This document shows, in pieces, positions 1 through 23,702 of a DNA stretch of 23,702 nucleotides. Under the pieces are notes generated by a model. It was not told the DNA's origin. It worked only from the letters and a program-made list of their open reading frames with translations, and ran no database searches. This DNA is from a virus. Each line of letters opens with the position of its first letter. Position 1 is the first letter of the stretch. The stretch is taken from positions 1-23,702 of the IMG/VR virus record IMGVR_UViG_3300028829_001027; one strand, given 5' to 3'. The position numbers and the translations under genes were made by a program.

Positions 1-3000
1 AAGAGAGATAGGGTTGTACCGGATGCTATCGTTCAAAAAAGTTGGGAAGATGTTCAAGGTAATTTGGGTGCCTTTCAAGGTTTATTCGGTGGTTCTAACT
101 TTATGATTGTTCAGAATAATAAGATGTTATCGGACTCTCAAATAACTAAGCATTTTAAGATGTTGGTTAGTAAGGGTATAGATACTTTTTTAAAGAAACC
201 AATTAAAAGTAAAGTTGGTAAAGCTTGGTTACGAAGAGAAAAGAAACATCAAAAGGTATTTAAAGATCCAGGTCAATCTAAGTTTTTCGAATCTATAGAA
301 GTTCCTGTTGACATAGGTGATACAGTTCTCATGGGTAGATTTAAAAATAAAAAGGTAGTTGTTAAGTCTATCGATTATAACGAAAAGGGAGACTTACTTA
401 TTAATGGTAGAACTGCTTTAAAATTTAGAATAATGAAAAAGGATGATGTTAAGGAAATGGATATACCATCACCAAGTCGTAAGATGGTAAAGAAGATGAA
501 GAAAAAGGGCAACACTTCAGTTCCTTATGGTAGTGGTTATAAGAAAGTAAGTGAAGCACAAGCCGTAAAGGGCAGTAAAGTAGCAAAGTTTATTACAGGT
601 CACAATCTTACTATGAAGGGTAAGAAATATAAAGAAATAGAATTTGAAACATTAGGCGTTGATAATAGTTCAAAGATGATTAAGTTAAAAATTATAGCAC
701 CTAAGAACTTATTTGGTATGGAGACACCTGTAAGGTTTTCAACAATAAGAAGAGGCCCCTTTACAAAAACCGATACTGGTAAAAAATTAAAAGAAGTTCA
801 AAAGACTGTAACAGATAAAGTTTTTGATAAAAAAAGAGAATCTGGTGCTTGGACAGTAATAGGACATATGAAAAAGAAAGGTAAATCTACCTTTCACGTA
901 AGAGATGAAAAGAGTGGTAAAAGATTTGATGTAAAATTGATGGAACAGAAACAAATCAAAAAAACCATCGGTGTATTCGGTGGAAGATTCCAACCATTTC
1001 ATAGTGGACATCTAGCCACATACAATTGGTTAAAGACAAAGGTAGATGAGGTTTACATAACAACATCTAATATTAAACAACCACCAAGACATCCAATGGA
1101 CTTTAAAGAAAAGGTTCGTCACATGACAAAGATGGGTATTCCAAAGAATCGTATCGTTATGGAAAAGTCACCTTACGTAGCAAAGAACTTACTATCAAAG
1201 TTTAATAAGGATACGACTGCTGTAGTATATGCATTTGGTAAGAAGGATGCTGGTAGGTTGAAGGCTGGTAAGGGTAAATATTTTCAAGACTATAAAAAAA
1301 GTCAAGGTAATATAAATGGTTATGAAGAAAACGGATACTTTATAACTGCTCCCCAATTTGGTAATGTAAGCGGTACACAGATGAGAAAACTTTTAGGTGA
1401 CCCGAAGCTTGATGATAGTGATAGGGTAAAATCTTTCAAAAAAGTATTTGGATATTATGATAAAGGTGTGTATACTATGATGACTAATAAGTTTAAAAAG
1501 TTATTTGAGTCATATACATTAAGTGACGATTTGATAAAAGAGTTTTTAACAGAAAGTACAACAGCATTATCACCAACAGATGATGGTCCACCAACATTTT
1601 ACAAAGGATTTAATGATTATAAAAAATATTCTAAAAAGTGGATGGATGATATGTACTCAGGTGCTGGTTGGAAGGTGCTACAATATATTTTAGGTAAACA
1701 TGCTATCAATCCTGATTTTGATTACACTTTGAATTACAATGTAGTTCCTGCAGTTGCATATGGTAATAAACAATCTGGTGAATATGGTACTAGATTTGGT
1801 ACAAACAATCCAATAAAGTCTTATAAAGATTATATAGAAGGAACTGTGCTACGTAATTTAGGATATGAACTTATCAAGTGGATGGGTATAACACCAGATG
1901 GTAAAAATTATACTGGTGTAGAAGTTGAAACTCCAGTTTTACCAGGTATTGGTGATGATAATGTAGGTAATACAGAAAAGAAAAAGTTAAAAGTAAAAGA
2001 ATCATTTAACTTAGATGATGAAGTTAAGTTATTGATAGAAGGTGGTGCTTATGGACACCTCAACCATCCTTTTGATGACAAAAATCTTACATTTTCAGAT
2101 TTTAAAACACTAATTATTAATACACTACAAGGTAAACTTGATAGTGAAGGAGCGGTTACAGAAAAAACAGATGGTCAGAATATAATGATAAGTTGGAAAA
2201 ATGATAAACTTATCGCAGCTCGTAACAAAGGACATATTAAAAATCATGGTGCTAATGCATTGAGTGTTAGTGGTATTAAAAATATGTTTGCTGGTAGAGG
2301 CGAAATAGAAACAGCATTTGTATCAGCTATGAGAGATTTAGAAAAGGCTCTTAAAGGTTTAAGTAAGAAACAAAAAGATAAAATATTTGGAGAAGGTAAA
2401 AAGTTTATGTCTTTGGAAGTTATTTATCCAAAAACAGCAAACGTAATACCATATGATAAATCATTATTACAATTTCATGGTACAATTGAGTATGATACAG
2501 ATGGTTCTCCCATTGGAGAAGACAGAGGAAGTGCTAGAGTATTAGCTGGTATGATAAAACAGATAAATCAAAACATACAAAAGACATATAGTATCACAAA
2601 ACCATTTATAACTAATTTACCTAAAGTAAAAAACTTTGCAAAGAGACAAAGTTACTTTTTAGGTAAGTTAAATAAACTACAAAGTCAATATCAGTTGGGT
2701 GACAGAGATACATTAGCTGATTATCATCAAGCTTATTGGATGGAATACATATATAATGGTGCTAAACAGACAGATTACAAGAATCCAGCTAACGATGTTC
2801 TTATGAAGTTAACAAAACGATGGGCATTCTTTGACAAATCATATAAAATACCACAGATTAGAAAAGATTTACAGAAATATCCTAAATTTTTAAATTGGGT
2901 ATTAAATACAGACAAGATAGACCATGCTAAACTACAAAAACAACACATTAGAGATTGGGAAGTTCTGTTTTTTGAGTTGGGAGCAGAGATATTGTCCAAT

Positions 3001-3270
3001 CTTAGTGACTTTATAGCCGCTAATCCATCAAAATCAGCTCAAACAATTCGTAAGGATTTAAAATCAGCTATAAATAAAGTAAAAACATCCAAGGATCCTA
3101 AAGTTATTAATACTTTGAAGGTTCAGTTAGATAGATTAAAGGCTATCGGTGGTTTAAAGGCGGTTGTACCAAGTGAAGGTATAACATTTGTCTATAAAGG
3201 TAAATTATTTAAGTACACAGGTGCTTTTGCACCAGCAAATCAAATATTAGGAATGTTAAAGTTCGTATAG
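1..3270 (+). CDS. NMNAT-like / ligase-type nucleotidyltransferase fusion (5' partial)
   Basis: The frame is open from base 1, so the gene starts upstream; at least 1089 codons are visible and an internal TTG at 64 is not a convincing start. Three parts follow a lysine-rich N-terminal region. First is an HxGH nucleotidylyltransferase domain: GGRFQPFHSGH at nt 979-1011 and SGTQMRKLL at nt 1369-1395, the latter like the family's C-terminal ISSTxxR element. This resembles NMN adenylyltransferases, but the substrate is unproven. Second is an unrecognised middle region (about nt 1555-2040) beginning near TDDGPP. Third is a ligase-superfamily nucleotidyltransferase domain with motif I KTDG (K at nt 2164-2166), motif Ia ARNKG (R at 2221), motif III LEVIYP (E at 2416), motif IV SEGITF (E at 3175) and motif V FKYTG (K at 3211). 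All expected ligase motifs appear present, so it may be catalytically competent. LxE sites sit at both module junctions. It ends 8 bases before the next gene. Confidence 0.8.
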   Translation, partial: KRDRVVPDAIVQKSWEDVQGNLGAFQGLFGGSNFMIVQNNKMLSDSQITKHFKMLVSKGIDTFLKKPIKSKVGKAWLRREKKHQKVFKDPGQSKFFESIEVPVDIGDTVLMGRFKNKKVVVKSIDYNEKGDLLINGRTALKFRIMKKDDVKEMDIPSPSRKMVKKMKKKGNTSVPYGSGYKKVSEAQAVKGSKVAKFITGHNLTMKGKKYKEIEFETLGVDNSSKMIKLKIIAPKNLFGMETPVRFSTIRRGPFTKTDTGKKLKEVQKTVTDKVFDKKRESGAWTVIGHMKKKGKSTFHVRDEKSGKRFDVKLMEQKQIKKTIGVFGGRFQPFHSGHLATYNWLKTKVDEVYITTSNIKQPPRHPMDFKEKVRHMTKMGIPKNRIVMEKSPYVAKNLLSKFNKDTTAVVYAFGKKDAGRLKAGKGKYFQDYKKSQGNINGYEENGYFITAPQFGNVSGTQMRKLLGDPKLDDSDRVKSFKKVFGYYDKGVYTMMTNKFKKLFESYTLSDDLIKEFLTESTTALSPTDDGPPTFYKGFNDYKKYSKKWMDDMYSGAGWKVLQYILGKHAINPDFDYTLNYNVVPAVAYGNKQSGEYGTRFGTNNPIKSYKDYIEGTVLRNLGYELIKWMGITPDGKNYTGVEVETPVLPGIGDDNVGNTEKKKLKVKESFNLDDEVKLLIEGGAYGHLNHPFDDKNLTFSDFKTLIINTLQGKLDSEGAVTEKTDGQNIMISWKNDKLIAARNKGHIKNHGANALSVSGIKNMFAGRGEIETAFVSAMRDLEKALKGLSKKQKDKIFGEGKKFMSLEVIYPKTANVIPYDKSLLQFHGTIEYDTDGSPIGEDRGSARVLAGMIKQINQNIQKTYSITKPFITNLPKVKNFAKRQSYFLGKLNKLQSQYQLGDRDTLADYHQAYWMEYIYNGAKQTDYKNPANDVLMKLTKRWAFFDKSYKIPQIRKDLQKYPKFLNWVLNTDKIDHAKLQKQHIRDWEVLFFELGAEILSNLSDFIAANPSKSAQTIRKDLKSAINKVKTSKDPKVINTLKVQLDRLKAIGGLKAVVPSEGITFVYKGKLFKYTGAFAPANQILGMLKFV

Positions 3271-18790: not shown

Positions 18791-20467
18791 ATGTCAAAAC
18801 CATTACCAAGAAAACAACGAGTCTTAAATAGAGGATATTTATATACAAGGTCTGGTGAAAATATTAAAAATCCAGAAGTTACACTTATTGATATTGATAG
18901 TTCTATTATGTTTTATTTTGAAAATGTAATTCAACCATCTATTGAAGATAATGGAGAAAATGTAAAAGTTCCTATTATGTACGCATCACCAGAACGTTGG
19001 AGTGCAATAAAAAAACAAGGTTTTATTAGAGATAAAAAAAGACAAATGATTACACCAGTTATTGCATATCGTAGAACTTCGATTGCAAAAGACGATAGTG
19101 TTCCACAAGATAAGTTAGATGCGAATGATCCTCATATGTTTTACACATTTGAAAAGAAATTTTCACAAGTAAATAAATATGATAACTTTTCAAAACAAAT
19201 AGGACTATTACCACAAAGAGAATATTATAATGTAATGATGCCAGACTATGTTACGATAACATATGATTTTATTGTTTGGACATCCTATATAGACCAAATG
19301 AATGGAATAGTTGAAAAAATAGTGTATTCGGATGGTGCTTATTGGGGTGATCCTGATAAAATGAGATTTAGAAGTAGTATAGAGACATTCGAAGATGCAA
19401 CTGAAATTAGTGATACTGAAAGATTAGTTAGAACAAATTTTACTGTTACGTTAAGAGGATATTTATTACCAAAGGGTAATTTTGACCATAGGTCAACTAC
19501 ACAAAAATTCCTTACACCAAAGAAAGTAATATTTGGAACAGAAACTGTAGATACAATTACTAAAAATATTGGTAAAAGTGGTCAATTTCAAGATACTTTA
19601 CCAGATGAAACAACTATATCAAGTGTTCCAGCAGTTGGTGATTTGGGAATAGTAGTTAGTAATCCATTGATTTTTAATCAAAGTACTGGAGTAACCCTAT
19701 CAAATTCTGGTGTTGAATTTAATGGTAGTAGTAGGTTAGAACAAACAATTTCTATAGGACAAAGTGTATCTCCTACCGATAATGTAGTGTTTAATTCTGT
19801 ATCTGCAAGTTCATTAATATTAGGAAGTACTATATTTAAAGATTCTCAAATAACTGGTAGTATATCTATAAACGGTTCTTTGGTAAGTGATGGTAATATA
19901 ACAATAACTGGTAATGCATCTGTTGAAGGAACTTTAACTGTAAAAGAATTACATACAGAATTTGTTTCAGCTTCTATCATATTTGCTAGTGGTTCTACAC
20001 AATTCGGAGATACAAGTGATGATAATCATGAATTTAGTGGAAGTGTATTAGTATCTGGTTCGTTAAGTTTGAATAATTATTCAGTTACAGAAATATCTAA
20101 TGACACGAGTTTAACAGATGCAAGTTCAACTGCATTGATTACTGAAAACGCCGCTAAGACTTATATAGATGACAATGTAACCGAACCAAATGCATATTTA
20201 AGAAAACAATTTTTTAAAACTTCTACTTCAATAACAGTTCCATCAACGGCTAGTTTCACTGCAGTGTCAGCTTCAGCACCATCAGTATTATCTGCAACAT
20301 CTAAAAATGATTTTATATTTTTTATAAATGGTCAGTATATGGAACACGATGCGGTATCAATACAACAAAATGGTTCTACATTTCACCTTATTGTTGATAC
20401 CGATAGTATAGGTTATGATTTAGAAAGTGATGATGAGATATTGGCTATAGGTAAATTTAACTCGTAG
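18791..20467 (+). CDS. gp15-like protein, copy B, fused to a fibre-type module
   Basis: This is a 558-aa fusion. Residues 1 to about 255 are paralogous to the preceding gp15-like protein (NGENVKVPIMYASPERW, DKLDANDPHMFYTFEKK, FIVWTSYIDQMNGIVEK, DTERLVRTNFTVTLRGYLL). Residues about 285-558 are unrelated to gp15: a Ser/Thr/Gly-rich beta region with IGQSVSPTDNVVFNSV, then SGSTQFGDTSDD-HEFSGS, then a terminal domain ending DESDDEILAIGKFNS-like (actual DLESDDEILAIGKFNS). The entire C-terminal half is paralogous to the next gene. The frame is continuous through the junction near nt 19560-19640, so the fusion is real in this sequence. One base separates it from the upstream stop. A tail-terminator ring carrying a fibre or whisker-like appendage is a possible reading. 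Confidence 0.75.
   Translation: MSKPLPRKQRVLNRGYLYTRSGENIKNPEVTLIDIDSSIMFYFENVIQPSIEDNGENVKVPIMYASPERWSAIKKQGFIRDKKRQMITPVIAYRRTSIAKDDSVPQDKLDANDPHMFYTFEKKFSQVNKYDNFSKQIGLLPQREYYNVMMPDYVTITYDFIVWTSYIDQMNGIVEKIVYSDGAYWGDPDKMRFRSSIETFEDATEISDTERLVRTNFTVTLRGYLLPKGNFDHRSTTQKFLTPKKVIFGTETVDTITKNIGKSGQFQDTLPDETTISSVPAVGDLGIVVSNPLIFNQSTGVTLSNSGVEFNGSSRLEQTISIGQSVSPTDNVVFNSVSASSLILGSTIFKDSQITGSISINGSLVSDGNITITGNASVEGTLTVKELHTEFVSASIIFASGSTQFGDTSDDNHEFSGSVLVSGSLSLNNYSVTEISNDTSLTDASSTALITENAAKTYIDDNVTEPNAYLRKQFFKTSTSITVPSTASFTAVSASAPSVLSATSKNDFIFFINGQYMEHDAVSIQQNGSTFHLIVDTDSIGYDLESDDEILAIGKFNS
19988..20014 (+). repeat. 27-base direct repeat in fibre modules, copy 1
   Basis: These 27 bases encode SGSTQFGDT and are identical to 20830-20856 in the next gene. 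The surrounding sequence is related but diverged, marking paralogous fibre modules. Confidence 0.8.
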
Positions 20468-20475
20468 GTATATAA

Positions 20476-21306
20476 ATGGCTAATATTTTTAGAGGACCAT
20501 TAATTATGATACAAGGCACTGGTGTTACTATAACACCCAATAACTTGGAATTACTAGGAAAAACATCACCCACAGAAATAATAACGATTGGAATTGGTAA
20601 TGACATATCACCAACTGCAAATCCTATATTTTTTACATTGACAACAACAACTGAACAATTTCAAATAAATGATTATATAATAAAACCAAATGCATTAACA
20701 GGTTCTATAAGTATACTAGGAAATACTACAGTTTCATCGTTAACTACACTTGATAATATGAGTGTTTTGGGAACTACCACTGCTAAAAAAATTGAGTCTC
20801 AATTAACACAATCAATTACATTGTTTGAAAGTGGTTCTACACAATTCGGAGATACATCAGATGATACTCATCAATTTAGTGGAAGTTTTATGTCATCGGG
20901 TTCTTTTTCAGTAAATCATTCTGTAAATGGTATTTCAAATGATACAAATTTAACAGACGGTAGTTCTGTAAAGTTAGTTACAGAAAATGCTGTAAAAACT
21001 TATTTAGATGCAAATGATGATGATACAATTACAGAGTATTTTAGAAAATGTTTTGCTCATACTGGTAGTTTTATTAGTTCAACCACTTCTAGTTTTACAG
21101 CTGTAACTGCGTCTGCACCATCTGAAGTTACATCTACTACTGAACATGATTTTATGTTTTTTATTAATGGTCAATTAATGGAAAATGATGGTATTTCAAT
21201 TAGACAAGCAGATTCATCCTTTCTTTTACATATAGATAACAATAGTATAGGTTATGATTTAACAAATGATGATGAAATAGTAGCTTGGGGTAAATTTAAT
21301 TCATAG
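20476..21306 (+). CDS. fibre-type structural protein
   Basis: This 276-aa protein is paralogous to the C-terminal half of the preceding fusion. It shares IGxxxSPTxNxxF near residue 38, LTGSISI in the middle, SGSTQFGDTSDDTHQFSGS (about 118-136), and a C-terminal domain with SSFTAVTASAP, DFMFFINGQLMENDGISI and DNNSIGYDLTNDDEIVAWGK. Ser/Thr/Gly-rich repeats of this type form trimeric beta-structured shafts in phage fibres, and the conserved C-terminal domain may be the trimer cap or tip. The ribosome site is weak (AGG). No gp15-like domain is present. It is probably a tail or neck fibre; the exact site is unknown. Confidence 0.7.
   Translation: MANIFRGPLIMIQGTGVTITPNNLELLGKTSPTEIITIGIGNDISPTANPIFFTLTTTTEQFQINDYIIKPNALTGSISILGNTTVSSLTTLDNMSVLGTTTAKKIESQLTQSITLFESGSTQFGDTSDDTHQFSGSFMSSGSFSVNHSVNGISNDTNLTDGSSVKLVTENAVKTYLDANDDDTITEYFRKCFAHTGSFISSTTSSFTAVTASAPSEVTSTTEHDFMFFINGQLMENDGISIRQADSSFLLHIDNNSIGYDLTNDDEIVAWGKFNS
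20830..20856 (+). repeat. 27-base direct repeat in fibre modules, copy 2
   Basis: This is identical to 19988-20014 in the preceding gene, 842 bases upstream. Confidence 0.8.
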
Positions 21307-21333
21307 TTCCACTTTTCTTTTAGTACTTCTTGA

Positions 21334-21341
21334 TATTTATA
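21334..21341 (+). promoter_or_regulatory. TATTTATA element at the start of the zinc-ribbon gene
   Basis: This copy of the gap element ends only three bases before the ATG at 21345. A transcript starting a usual distance downstream would begin inside that gene, so the element may instead serve the fibre genes from 21656 on, or be chance. Confidence 0.3.
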
Positions 21342-21344
21342 AGT

Positions 21345-21668
21345 ATGAGAAAAAGAAGTTGGAAAGATAGAAAGAATAGAAAATGTCCTACTTGTACTAG
21401 GATATTAACATATTCTAGAAAAGATTCTTTTGATAGAGCAGTTGGAAATAATACAGTTTGTAAGTCATGTGCACAAACGGATAGAAAACTTACAATGGAG
21501 ACGATACAAAAAATGCAACAACCTAAAACTGTTGAACATAGACAAAAGATTTCTATCAGTCAATACAAAAGGTCATACGATAGATACTTATTAGAAGTAC
21601 AGACGCCTAATTTATCATTTGATGAATTTATAGTGGCTAGAAAACAAGGATATACATGGCAATATTAA
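21345..21668 (+). CDS. zinc-ribbon protein with NUMOD3-like motif
   Basis: This 107-aa basic protein is inserted among fibre genes. It has C14-x2-C17 and C39-x2-C42 (a zinc ribbon) followed by KTVEHRQKIS (61-70), which resembles the NUMOD3 DNA-binding motif of homing endonucleases. There is no HNH, GIY-YIG or other nuclease core, so it may be a remnant of, or a DNA-binding relative of, a homing endonuclease. I chose ATG 21345; a TTG at 21330 would add MIFIS but lies within the promoter-like element. No Shine-Dalgarno is visible. Its last 13 bases overlap the next gene, suggesting it is long settled. Confidence 0.6.
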   Translation: MRKRSWKDRKNRKCPTCTRILTYSRKDSFDRAVGNNTVCKSCAQTDRKLTMETIQKMQQPKTVEHRQKISISQYKRSYDRYLLEVQTPNLSFDEFIVARKQGYTWQY

Positions 21669-22147
21669 AAAGTAAACAATTAAATCCAAATCTAACAGGT
21701 TCATTCGTCTTATCAGGTTCTAGTCAAACTTTACATGGCACTACTACTATTTTTGGAAACACTACCATAAGTGGTTCAGTAGCATCGTTAAAGGGTTCGT
21801 CAGCTGATTTAAGAATTAGACAAGATGACGATACAACTTTAATAAAATTAGAGACGGATTCAGGTGGTTCATCCGCATTATTATTATATGATAATAAACA
21901 TCATAGTGGTGGTAATACAGTTGACATAAATTCTGCAGATACAAACGCCTTAACCATAAAGTCTGGTAGTTCAACAATATTTACAGTTGATAGGGATAAT
22001 GTAAAAATAAGTGGTTCATCTAGTTCTACTGGTTCATTTGGAAAAGTAGATACGGCTGGTGATATTGTAGCTAGTGGAAGAATTTTTGAACAAGGAACAT
22101 CAGTAATAGACCACGCTACGGCGATGGCAATAGTATTTGGAGGATAA
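21656..22147 (+). CDS. fibre-type structural protein with SGS repeats
   Basis: This 163-aa protein has an AAGGA site inside the upstream gene. It opens with MAILKSKQLNPNLTGSFVLS, then Ser/Gly/Thr-rich repeats (TISGSVASLKGSSADLRI), a segment LLLYDNKHHSGGNTV, and the cassette SGSSSSTGSFGKVDTAGDI (about 119-137). That cassette recurs twice in the fibre gene at 22478. It ends AMAIVFGG. This is typical of trimeric beta fibre or baseplate-attached proteins in marine phages. Partner and location in the virion are unknown. Confidence 0.65.
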   Translation: MAILKSKQLNPNLTGSFVLSGSSQTLHGTTTIFGNTTISGSVASLKGSSADLRIRQDDDTTLIKLETDSGGSSALLLYDNKHHSGGNTVDINSADTNALTIKSGSSTIFTVDRDNVKISGSSSSTGSFGKVDTAGDIVASGRIFEQGTSVIDHATAMAIVFGG

Positions 22148-22149
22148 TA

Positions 22150-22476
22150 ATGGCTAATACATTTAAAAGTGCAGCAAGTGGTTCAACAACAACGATACAG
22201 ACTTTGTATACCTGTCCAGCCGCAACATCTGGTGTGGTTCATGCAGTATATTTAAGTAATATAGATGGAACTAATGATGCTACTGTAAATTTATCAATAA
22301 GTGGAAGTGCAAATTTTGTTACGAGAAGATATATATTAAAGACCATAGATGTACCAGCAGATTCAACTGTGGTAATTGAGAAACCTATTAACTTAGGTGC
22401 TGGAGATAAATTGGAAACACAAGCTTCTGCTAATGGAGATATAGATGTTTTCGCAAGTATATTGGAAATAACATAA
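22150..22476 (+). CDS. small beta-rich putative virion protein
   Basis: This 108-aa protein has a strong GGAGG ribosome site 8 bases before the ATG, and the ATG lies 2 bases past the previous stop. The composition is rich in T, S, V, A and I. Features are LYTCPAATSGVVHAVYLSNI (about 19-38), NLSISGSANFVTRRYILKTI and the acidic/hydrophobic end DVFASILEIT. The pattern of alternating residues suggests a single beta-sandwich domain. Similar small proteins sit beside fibre genes in marine phages, and a fibre accessory or decoration role is inferred. Confidence 0.6.
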   Translation: MANTFKSAASGSTTTIQTLYTCPAATSGVVHAVYLSNIDGTNDATVNLSISGSANFVTRRYILKTIDVPADSTVVIEKPINLGAGDKLETQASANGDIDVFASILEIT

Positions 22477-22477
22477 T

Positions 22478-23702
22478 ATGGCAAACCTAAAATACATAGG
22501 TAAAAATATATTTAACCACAGTCTTGAGGTAAAGAAAGGTAATATAATTGGTGACCACACAGAGGTTATTAAAGTTACTGTTGTCTCCGATGGTGGTAAT
22601 AAGTATGCTTTTGAGGGTGCTACGACACCTGATTTTACTATTGATGAGGGAAAGACTTACAGATTCGACCAATCGGATAGTTCTAATGATACTCATCCTT
22701 TAAGATTTAGTATAGTAGAAAATGGAACTTGGGGTGGTGGTAGTGCTTACTCAACAGGAGTGATAACTCATGGAACTGCTGGAACAAAGGGAGCTTACAC
22801 AGAAATAAATGTTACAAAAGTTACTCCAAATCATTTATATTACTATTGTGTCAATCATAGTGGAATGGGTAATGATGCTCTTCTACTTAAAAATGATTTT
22901 TTAAACTTACATAGGGTAAGTGGTTCAGCTGTTTCAACAGGTTCGTTTGGTAAGATTATTGTTTCGGAGATGTCCAACTCAGATTTAAAATCTGTTTCAT
23001 CTTCTATATCTACAAGATTAACAACGGAAGAAGGAAATGTAGATACACTTCAAGCTAGAGATTTAATAGCTGGTACAGGTTTAACAGGTGGTGGAACATT
23101 AGCCTCCGATAGAACTTTCAATGTAGTCGGTGGAACTGGCATTACAGCAAATGCAAATGATATAGAAATAGATTTTTCAGATTCTACTTTACAAACTACA
23201 ATTAGTGGTTCAGTTACTTCGGTAAGTTCTTCATTAGCTGGTAGGATTACTACAGAAGAAGGAAATGTAGATACGTTACAAGCTAGAGATTTAATAGCAG
23301 GAGCTGGTTTAACTGGTGGTGGTACATTAGCTTCTGATAGAACTTTTAATGTTGGTGCTGGAACTGGTGTTACTGTAAATGCTAACGATGTAGCTATTGG
23401 ACAGTCAGTTGCAACATCTGATAATGTTACATTTGGTAGTGTAACTACAACAGGAAACGTAAGTGGCTCATCAACCTCGACTGGTTCGTTTGGAAGAGTA
23501 GAATCAAACACATTTAATGCAACAACATTTACAAGTACAGAAGTAACCTCTACAAATCTAACGGTTACAGGAACAATAACTGGTTCTTCTTTAGATGTAA
23601 GTGGTGATGGTATATTCGGTGGTAATATAAGAGCAGTAGGTGATGTAATAGCAGAAAGATATATTGTATCGTCTTCGGTTACACATCTTACACAATCATT
23701 CA
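22478..23702 (+). CDS. fibre protein with cupredoxin-like domain (3' partial)
   Basis: The frame is open from ATG 22478 to the window end (408 codons visible). Residues about 50-131 look like a cupredoxin fold: FTIDEGKTYRFDQSDSS, then HPLRFS with H73, GGGSAYSTGVITHGTAG, and YYYCVNHSGMG with C124, H127 and M130. The spacing C-x2-H-x2-M equals that of the amicyanin copper site. The remainder is a fibre shaft: the cassette SGSAVSTGSFG (about 146-156), two copies of a 35-residue segment starting TTEEGN, IGQSVATSDNVTFGSV, and SGSSTSTGSFGRV. The ribosome site is weak (GGAA). It is probably a tail fibre or tip-associated protein. Copper binding is untested. Confidence 0.78.
   Translation, partial: MANLKYIGKNIFNHSLEVKKGNIIGDHTEVIKVTVVSDGGNKYAFEGATTPDFTIDEGKTYRFDQSDSSNDTHPLRFSIVENGTWGGGSAYSTGVITHGTAGTKGAYTEINVTKVTPNHLYYYCVNHSGMGNDALLLKNDFLNLHRVSGSAVSTGSFGKIIVSEMSNSDLKSVSSSISTRLTTEEGNVDTLQARDLIAGTGLTGGGTLASDRTFNVVGGTGITANANDIEIDFSDSTLQTTISGSVTSVSSSLAGRITTEEGNVDTLQARDLIAGAGLTGGGTLASDRTFNVGAGTGVTVNANDVAIGQSVATSDNVTFGSVTTTGNVSGSSTSTGSFGRVESNTFNATTFTSTEVTSTNLTVTGTITGSSLDVSGDGIFGGNIRAVGDVIAERYIVSSSVTHLTQSF
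23021..23125 (+). repeat. 35-codon in-frame repeat in fibre gene, copy 1
   Basis: The copy encodes a 35-residue segment (TTEEGNVDTLQARDL, then IAG-GLTGGGTLASDRTFNV). It is nearly identical in protein to 23249-23353 but differs at several third codon positions, so the duplication is old and under selection for protein sequence. Confidence 0.8.
23249..23353 (+). repeat. 35-codon in-frame repeat in fibre gene, copy 2
   Basis: This is the second copy of the 35-residue segment, 228 bases downstream of the first. It is followed by a related stretch (GAGTGVTVNANDV against GGTGITANANDI after copy 1), so the true repeat unit is longer, about 50 residues. Confidence 0.8.

Follow-up and report, generated by a model that had tools for sequence, protein, structure and literature searches.

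The fibre-like virion protein at the right end of a 23,702-nucleotide stretch of viral DNA contains a domain that is almost certainly a cupredoxin with a type-1 copper ligand set. In the absence of metal or spectrum data, we consider it probable that this domain binds copper in nature. We infer that the site is a genuine type-1 copper site and that the module holding it is extracellular and either structural or adhesive; the binding of copper, the ligand geometry and the role are all inferred.

The stretch that was analysed, called the window below (23.7 kb in all), is virus record IMGVR_UViG_3300028829_001027, which is described as a marine virus. It carries T4-like head genes (terminase, portal, protease, major capsid and head-tail adaptor), and the nearest relatives of its capsid protein, at 52-56% identity, belong to Microcystis phage Mel-JY01 and Flavobacterium immuto phages. 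At positions 1-3270, adjoining the structural genes, lies a 1089-aa protein with a cytidylyltransferase domain, its start cut by the window. The fibre protein matched PHROG tail-fibre families 30742 (E 9.7e-21) and 693. Adjoining fibre-like proteins at 18791-23701 have short SGSSxSTGSFG-type motifs in common, which suggests exchangeable fibre cassettes. The features of the fibre gene are listed here, with ligand counts per alignment column taken from a set of domains thinned at 85% identity.

22478..23701, + strand: fibre-like virion protein (ORF translation; 408 aa read, 3' end beyond the window)
22562..22903, + strand: cupredoxin-fold domain, fibre residues 29-142 (AlphaFold2; Foldseek and VIA-align matches to copper cupredoxins)
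22694..22696, + strand: His73, putative copper ligand 1, in the HP motif before a beta strand (HPLRFS); kept in 122/123 non-redundant domains
22847..22849, + strand: Cys124, putative copper ligand 2 (YYYCVNHSGMG), the sole Cys of the domain; kept in 120/123
22856..22858, + strand: His127, putative copper ligand 3; kept in 120/122
22865..22867, + strand: Met130, putative axial ligand; Met in 119/122, with Gln in 2 more
22904..23701, + strand: repetitive fibre region with TTEEGNVDTLQARDLIAGxGLTGGGTLASDRTFNV repeats (translation)

An earlier reading made from the sequence only had picked out His73, Cys124, His127 and Met130 with a C-x2-H-x2-M spacing, and translation bore out both the positions and the spacing. 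The interval it proposed, 22625-22870, does hold the motif, but the domain is bigger, at about 22562-22903. The ligand order His, Cys, His, Met with a short C-terminal loop, which is the type-1 blue copper pattern, is present in the window domain, and Cys124 is the single cysteine among the 408 residues of the fibre read. Shuffling the fibre 200,000 times produced the pattern H-x30-75-C-x2-H-x2-M in 17 cases, and in the six frames of the window it occurs once, at the fibre domain.

When searched as a single sequence, the window domain matched no family significantly in Pfam, NCBIfam or the PDB sequences, and profiles had to be used instead; an initial alignment of the N-terminal region (A2) proved too variable for searching. 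The AlphaFold2 model of the domain, built from an alignment of 76 relatives, had a pLDDT of 91 and a pTM of 0.84. The best-ranked structures in a Foldseek search of the PDB were copper nitrite reductase, pseudoazurin, rusticyanin, laccases, plastocyanin and amicyanin, with modest scores (best E 2e-4; TM-scores about 0.4-0.6), and small laccases were also among the leading PDB fold matches listed. With VIA-align the best match was the N-terminal cupredoxin of 2DV6 (Z 9.3, rmsd 3.1, 98 residues), and all 50 of the 50 matches listed were copper proteins, either cupredoxins or multicopper oxidases. In model numbering, His45 (that is, His73) stands right before a strand and Cys96 at a strand end, while His99 and Met102 lie in the loop preceding the last strand; as modelled, this placement is the cupredoxin layout, the distances between the ligands not having been measured. 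By the model and both structure searches the domain belongs to the cupredoxin fold superfamily, whose mark is a Greek-key beta-sandwich with the ligand loops at one end, in agreement with the cupredoxin-like domain proposed from the sequence.

The window domain did not reach the cut-off of PF00127 (Copper-bind) or of any other Pfam family. Matches to PF00127 were obtained for 11/76 of its relatives (best E 0.0011), and the copy of phage P-HM1 scored 20.3 bits against a cut-off of 21.2 bits. The domain is therefore outside PF00127 by score, yet a cupredoxin by fold and ligand set. In P-HM1 and at one further locus (L243:2554-6225) a virion-type protein combines a subtilase domain with two complete cupredoxin domains.

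To guard against circularity, the four ligand columns of the search profile were masked when relatives were collected, and the scan took in loci fetched by ligand-free peptide patterns. With the masked profile, 207/210 complete distinct domains had the full ligand set; among the three exceptions, two had Met changed to Gln and one had lost the site. Gln in place of Met is the natural axial variant of stellacyanin, and it was seen in a SAR86 record (L211:3-7763) and in a Prochlorococcus record (L235:3393-9062). Included in this count are the samples taken with ligand-free patterns, which had full ligands in 52/52 viral and 52/55 genomic cases. That the conservation is an artefact of search patterns containing the ligands was excluded for the sampled relatives by these patterns and the masked profile. 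The ligand columns were among the most conserved in the set thinned at 85% identity, where the median share of the commonest residue over all columns was 0.74, and copies only 35-45% identical to the window domain had all four ligands in 18/19 cases. For the spacing in the C-x2-H-x2-M loop, most relatives had x2 and a subgroup x3. Exactly one Cys was present in 246/247 complete domains, which rules out an intradomain disulfide as the reason for the conserved cysteine.

The domain is also widespread, as had been guessed from the sequence. It matched 324 of 50,697 phage records, nearly all of them marine cyanophages, with pelagiphages and Methylophilales phages in addition. A complete copy in a lake phage of Actinomycetia argues against a strictly marine distribution; in this phage, DSL-LC01, the HPFWIK-type domain is adjoined by collagen-like genes and a tryptophan halogenase. 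A divergent version was found in 349 records, essentially of marine cyanomyoviruses, where it makes up the C-terminal part of gp9, the baseplate wedge-tail fibre connector (phrog_677; T4 gp9/10 N-terminal domain PF07880). By hhalign the gp9 version matched the window family with an E of 1.9e-17 and aligned ligands, and gp9 connectors were present at ranks 26 and 35 among the BFVD matches of the window model. AlphaFold2 applied to the gp9 version alone (A9; shallow alignment, first strand missing) gave a pLDDT of only 70; the PDB matches of this model were weak antibody-like sandwiches, and none of those ranked highest was clearly a cupredoxin. The gp9 link rests on the hhalign and BFVD matches, not on the weak model. 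In a sampled ligand-free scan, HP...C-x2-H-x2-M with a single Cys was present in 53/53 distinct gp9 copies, so that conservation of the four ligands in homologues, which the sequence-only reading had proposed as a check, holds for these as well as for the close relatives (207/210).

Metal sites in tail fibres are not without precedent. Iron is held by HxH motifs in the tail fibres of T4 (gp37) and of Alteromonas phage R22Y, and a Trojan Horse idea proposes a role for this iron in host contact or trace-metal cycling (PMC11705849). These fibres resemble what we propose for the window domain in having a metal site in the tail fibre of a marine phage; they differ in fold, metal and ligands, and in placing the site on a trimeric fibre axis rather than in a self-contained domain (PMC11705849). 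By analogy, copper-loaded fibres could pass for a copper carrier and attach to host surface proteins for copper uptake or handling, and such a lure fits a domain located both in fibres and in the fibre-attachment protein gp9. We nevertheless find it unlikely: no receptor is known, gp9 sits at the baseplate and not at the receptor-binding tip, and the domain is common to phages of very different hosts. A blue copper protein that cyanophages do encode is plastocyanin, carried as the metabolic gene petE, but that is a host-derived photosynthesis gene whose product is made in the cell and is not described as part of the virion (PMC2984593).

We also surveyed phage isolates (16 genomes, 37 copies), with the state of the ligands judged partly by eye from alignments. 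Four ligands were present in 23/37 copies and none or one in 14/37, whereas no copy had two or three. Because they are kept together or lost together, the ligands appear to act as one site, for which such concerted loss is expected. Degenerate cupredoxin-like copies that had lost three or four ligands together were observed in baseplate and virion proteins of phage isolates (L024, L025, L241, L247, L271-L273 and L279), for example in the stand-alone PSS2 gp080 and in the S-WAM1 fibre. The 14 copies without the site indicate that the fold and the virion do not always need copper. The earlier reading needs a correction here: the fold does not need the site, as distant paralogues have lost all or nearly all of the ligands together. 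The persistence of ligand-free copies in virion proteins, together with the very low level of free copper in seawater, could be taken to mean that the domain is a beta-sandwich without metal in the virion, its residues kept for packing or folding. We give this little credence, as packing can hardly explain why two His, a lone Cys and a Met are kept and lost together, and Met changes to Gln, which is another copper ligand.

The domain is shared with surface proteins of host cells. Cellular copies were found in a Prochlorococcus DUF4214 protein encoded beside a gamma-glutamyltranspeptidase gene, in a probable lipoprotein of Actinomarina and in giant C-type-lectin/DUF11 adhesins of marine Flavobacteria; many other matches, on contigs of metagenome-assembled genomes, may be viral. 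In a tree, viral copies and copies from cellular records were interleaved, with short sequences and many unresolved forks, which suggests exchange of the domain between viral and cellular genomes, without a direction and on sequence evidence alone. Secreted HPFYIK-type relatives from marine bacteria (L255-L257) pass the PF00127 cut-off. Like the window family they have the HP...YYxCxxHxxM pattern and all four ligands aligned; in contrast to the window domain they are short secreted cellular proteins. In hhalign, the window family matched the cellular cupredoxins over the cut-off with an E of 1.1e-10 and aligned H/C/H/M columns, and the ligand alignment was weaker against classical cupredoxins. 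Relatives of this kind link the family with the classical blue copper proteins.

The type-1 ligand set and the fold would also suit a redox module, in which the copper switches between the Cu(I) and Cu(II) states and either transfers electrons or senses the redox state of the host. In two Actinomarina contigs the gene for the cupredoxin lipoprotein is directly followed by a flavin/NAD oxidoreductase gene (L218:4374-6166 and L217:3663-5385). However, this is a different protein, known from only two closely related contigs, and the virion has no electron partner, so we regard a redox function of the fibre as very unlikely.

Among characterised proteins, the plastocyanin/azurin family (PF00127), amicyanin and pseudoazurin share with the window domain the fold and the His...Cys-His-Met order. 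The likeness to amicyanin noted from the sequence stands for the loop, whose C-x2-H-x2-M spacing recurs in the window domain (CVNHSGM), but not for the first ligand, which is His-Pro, as in multicopper oxidases, and not His-Asn. The members of PF00127 likewise have His-Asn, and they are soluble electron carriers, whereas the window domain is part of a virion fibre and scores below their cut-off. Amicyanin is a soluble electron carrier with a dehydrogenase partner; the window domain is instead one part of a tail-fibre protein, encoded within a cluster of virion genes. The best fold matches were the N-terminal cupredoxin of three-domain copper nitrite reductases (2DV6, 6TFO) and multicopper oxidases, with Z-scores of 9.3 and about 8.5. 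In these enzymes, as in the fibre, the cupredoxin is a domain of a larger protein, but no catalytic copper centre or enzyme partner domain was seen in the fibre. His-Pro at the first ligand is a multicopper oxidase feature. Blue copper sites can also bind zinc and cobalt in vitro. Iron being known in phage fibres (PMC11705849), the site might hold zinc, nickel, cobalt or iron in nature, but we find this the least credible of the readings, as a single Cys with two His and Met or Gln is the type-1 copper pattern and copper is present in all the leading fold matches listed.

The reading we favour, with a little less assurance than copper binding as such, is that the domain is a true cupredoxin whose type-1-like copper site works, and that it serves as an exchangeable extracellular module of fibre and baseplate which copper stabilises or shapes, the role being inferred. 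What the analysis itself shows is the sequence, the predicted fold, the conservation of the ligands, the place of the domain in gp9 of relatives and its occurrence in host surface proteins. Against a copper site stand the lack of metal and spectrum data, a score short of every Pfam cut-off, His-Pro in place of the classical His-Asn, and the loss of the site in 14/37 isolate copies. The fibre would be made copper-free in the host cytoplasm and would acquire Cu(I) or Cu(II) either when the cell lyses or from seawater. Once bound, the ion may hold the His loop and the Cys-His-Met loop together at one end of the beta-sandwich, and this clamp would stabilise the exposed module and shape its tip for the next fibre part or a partner on the host surface; electron transfer would not be the main job of the site. 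The weakest step is to give copper the task of stabilising or shaping an exposed module in preference to redox chemistry or host luring.

A search of the literature, with most subscription journals outside its scope, returned nothing relevant that links cupredoxin or plastocyanin-like domains to phage fibres or to cyanophage virions, and there appears to be no sign of any earlier copper-binding test on a phage-fibre domain. The fold and the site are already known; as far as we have seen, the setting and the spread in ocean phage virions are new. Blue copper sites are familiar from electron carriers and enzymes. If abundant ocean phages carry a conserved set of them in their fibres and baseplate connector, copper would join the metals of virions, hypothetical phage proteins would gain a function open to testing, and phage infection would be tied to the chemistry of trace metals. 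It is possible, though we hold this only tentatively and would sooner doubt it, that copper is a general and overlooked component of marine T4-like virions, with many blue-copper domains per particle (gp9, fibres) needed for fibre attachment or host contact. If this were true, ocean phages would make up a pool that binds copper, and infection could be copper-dependent.
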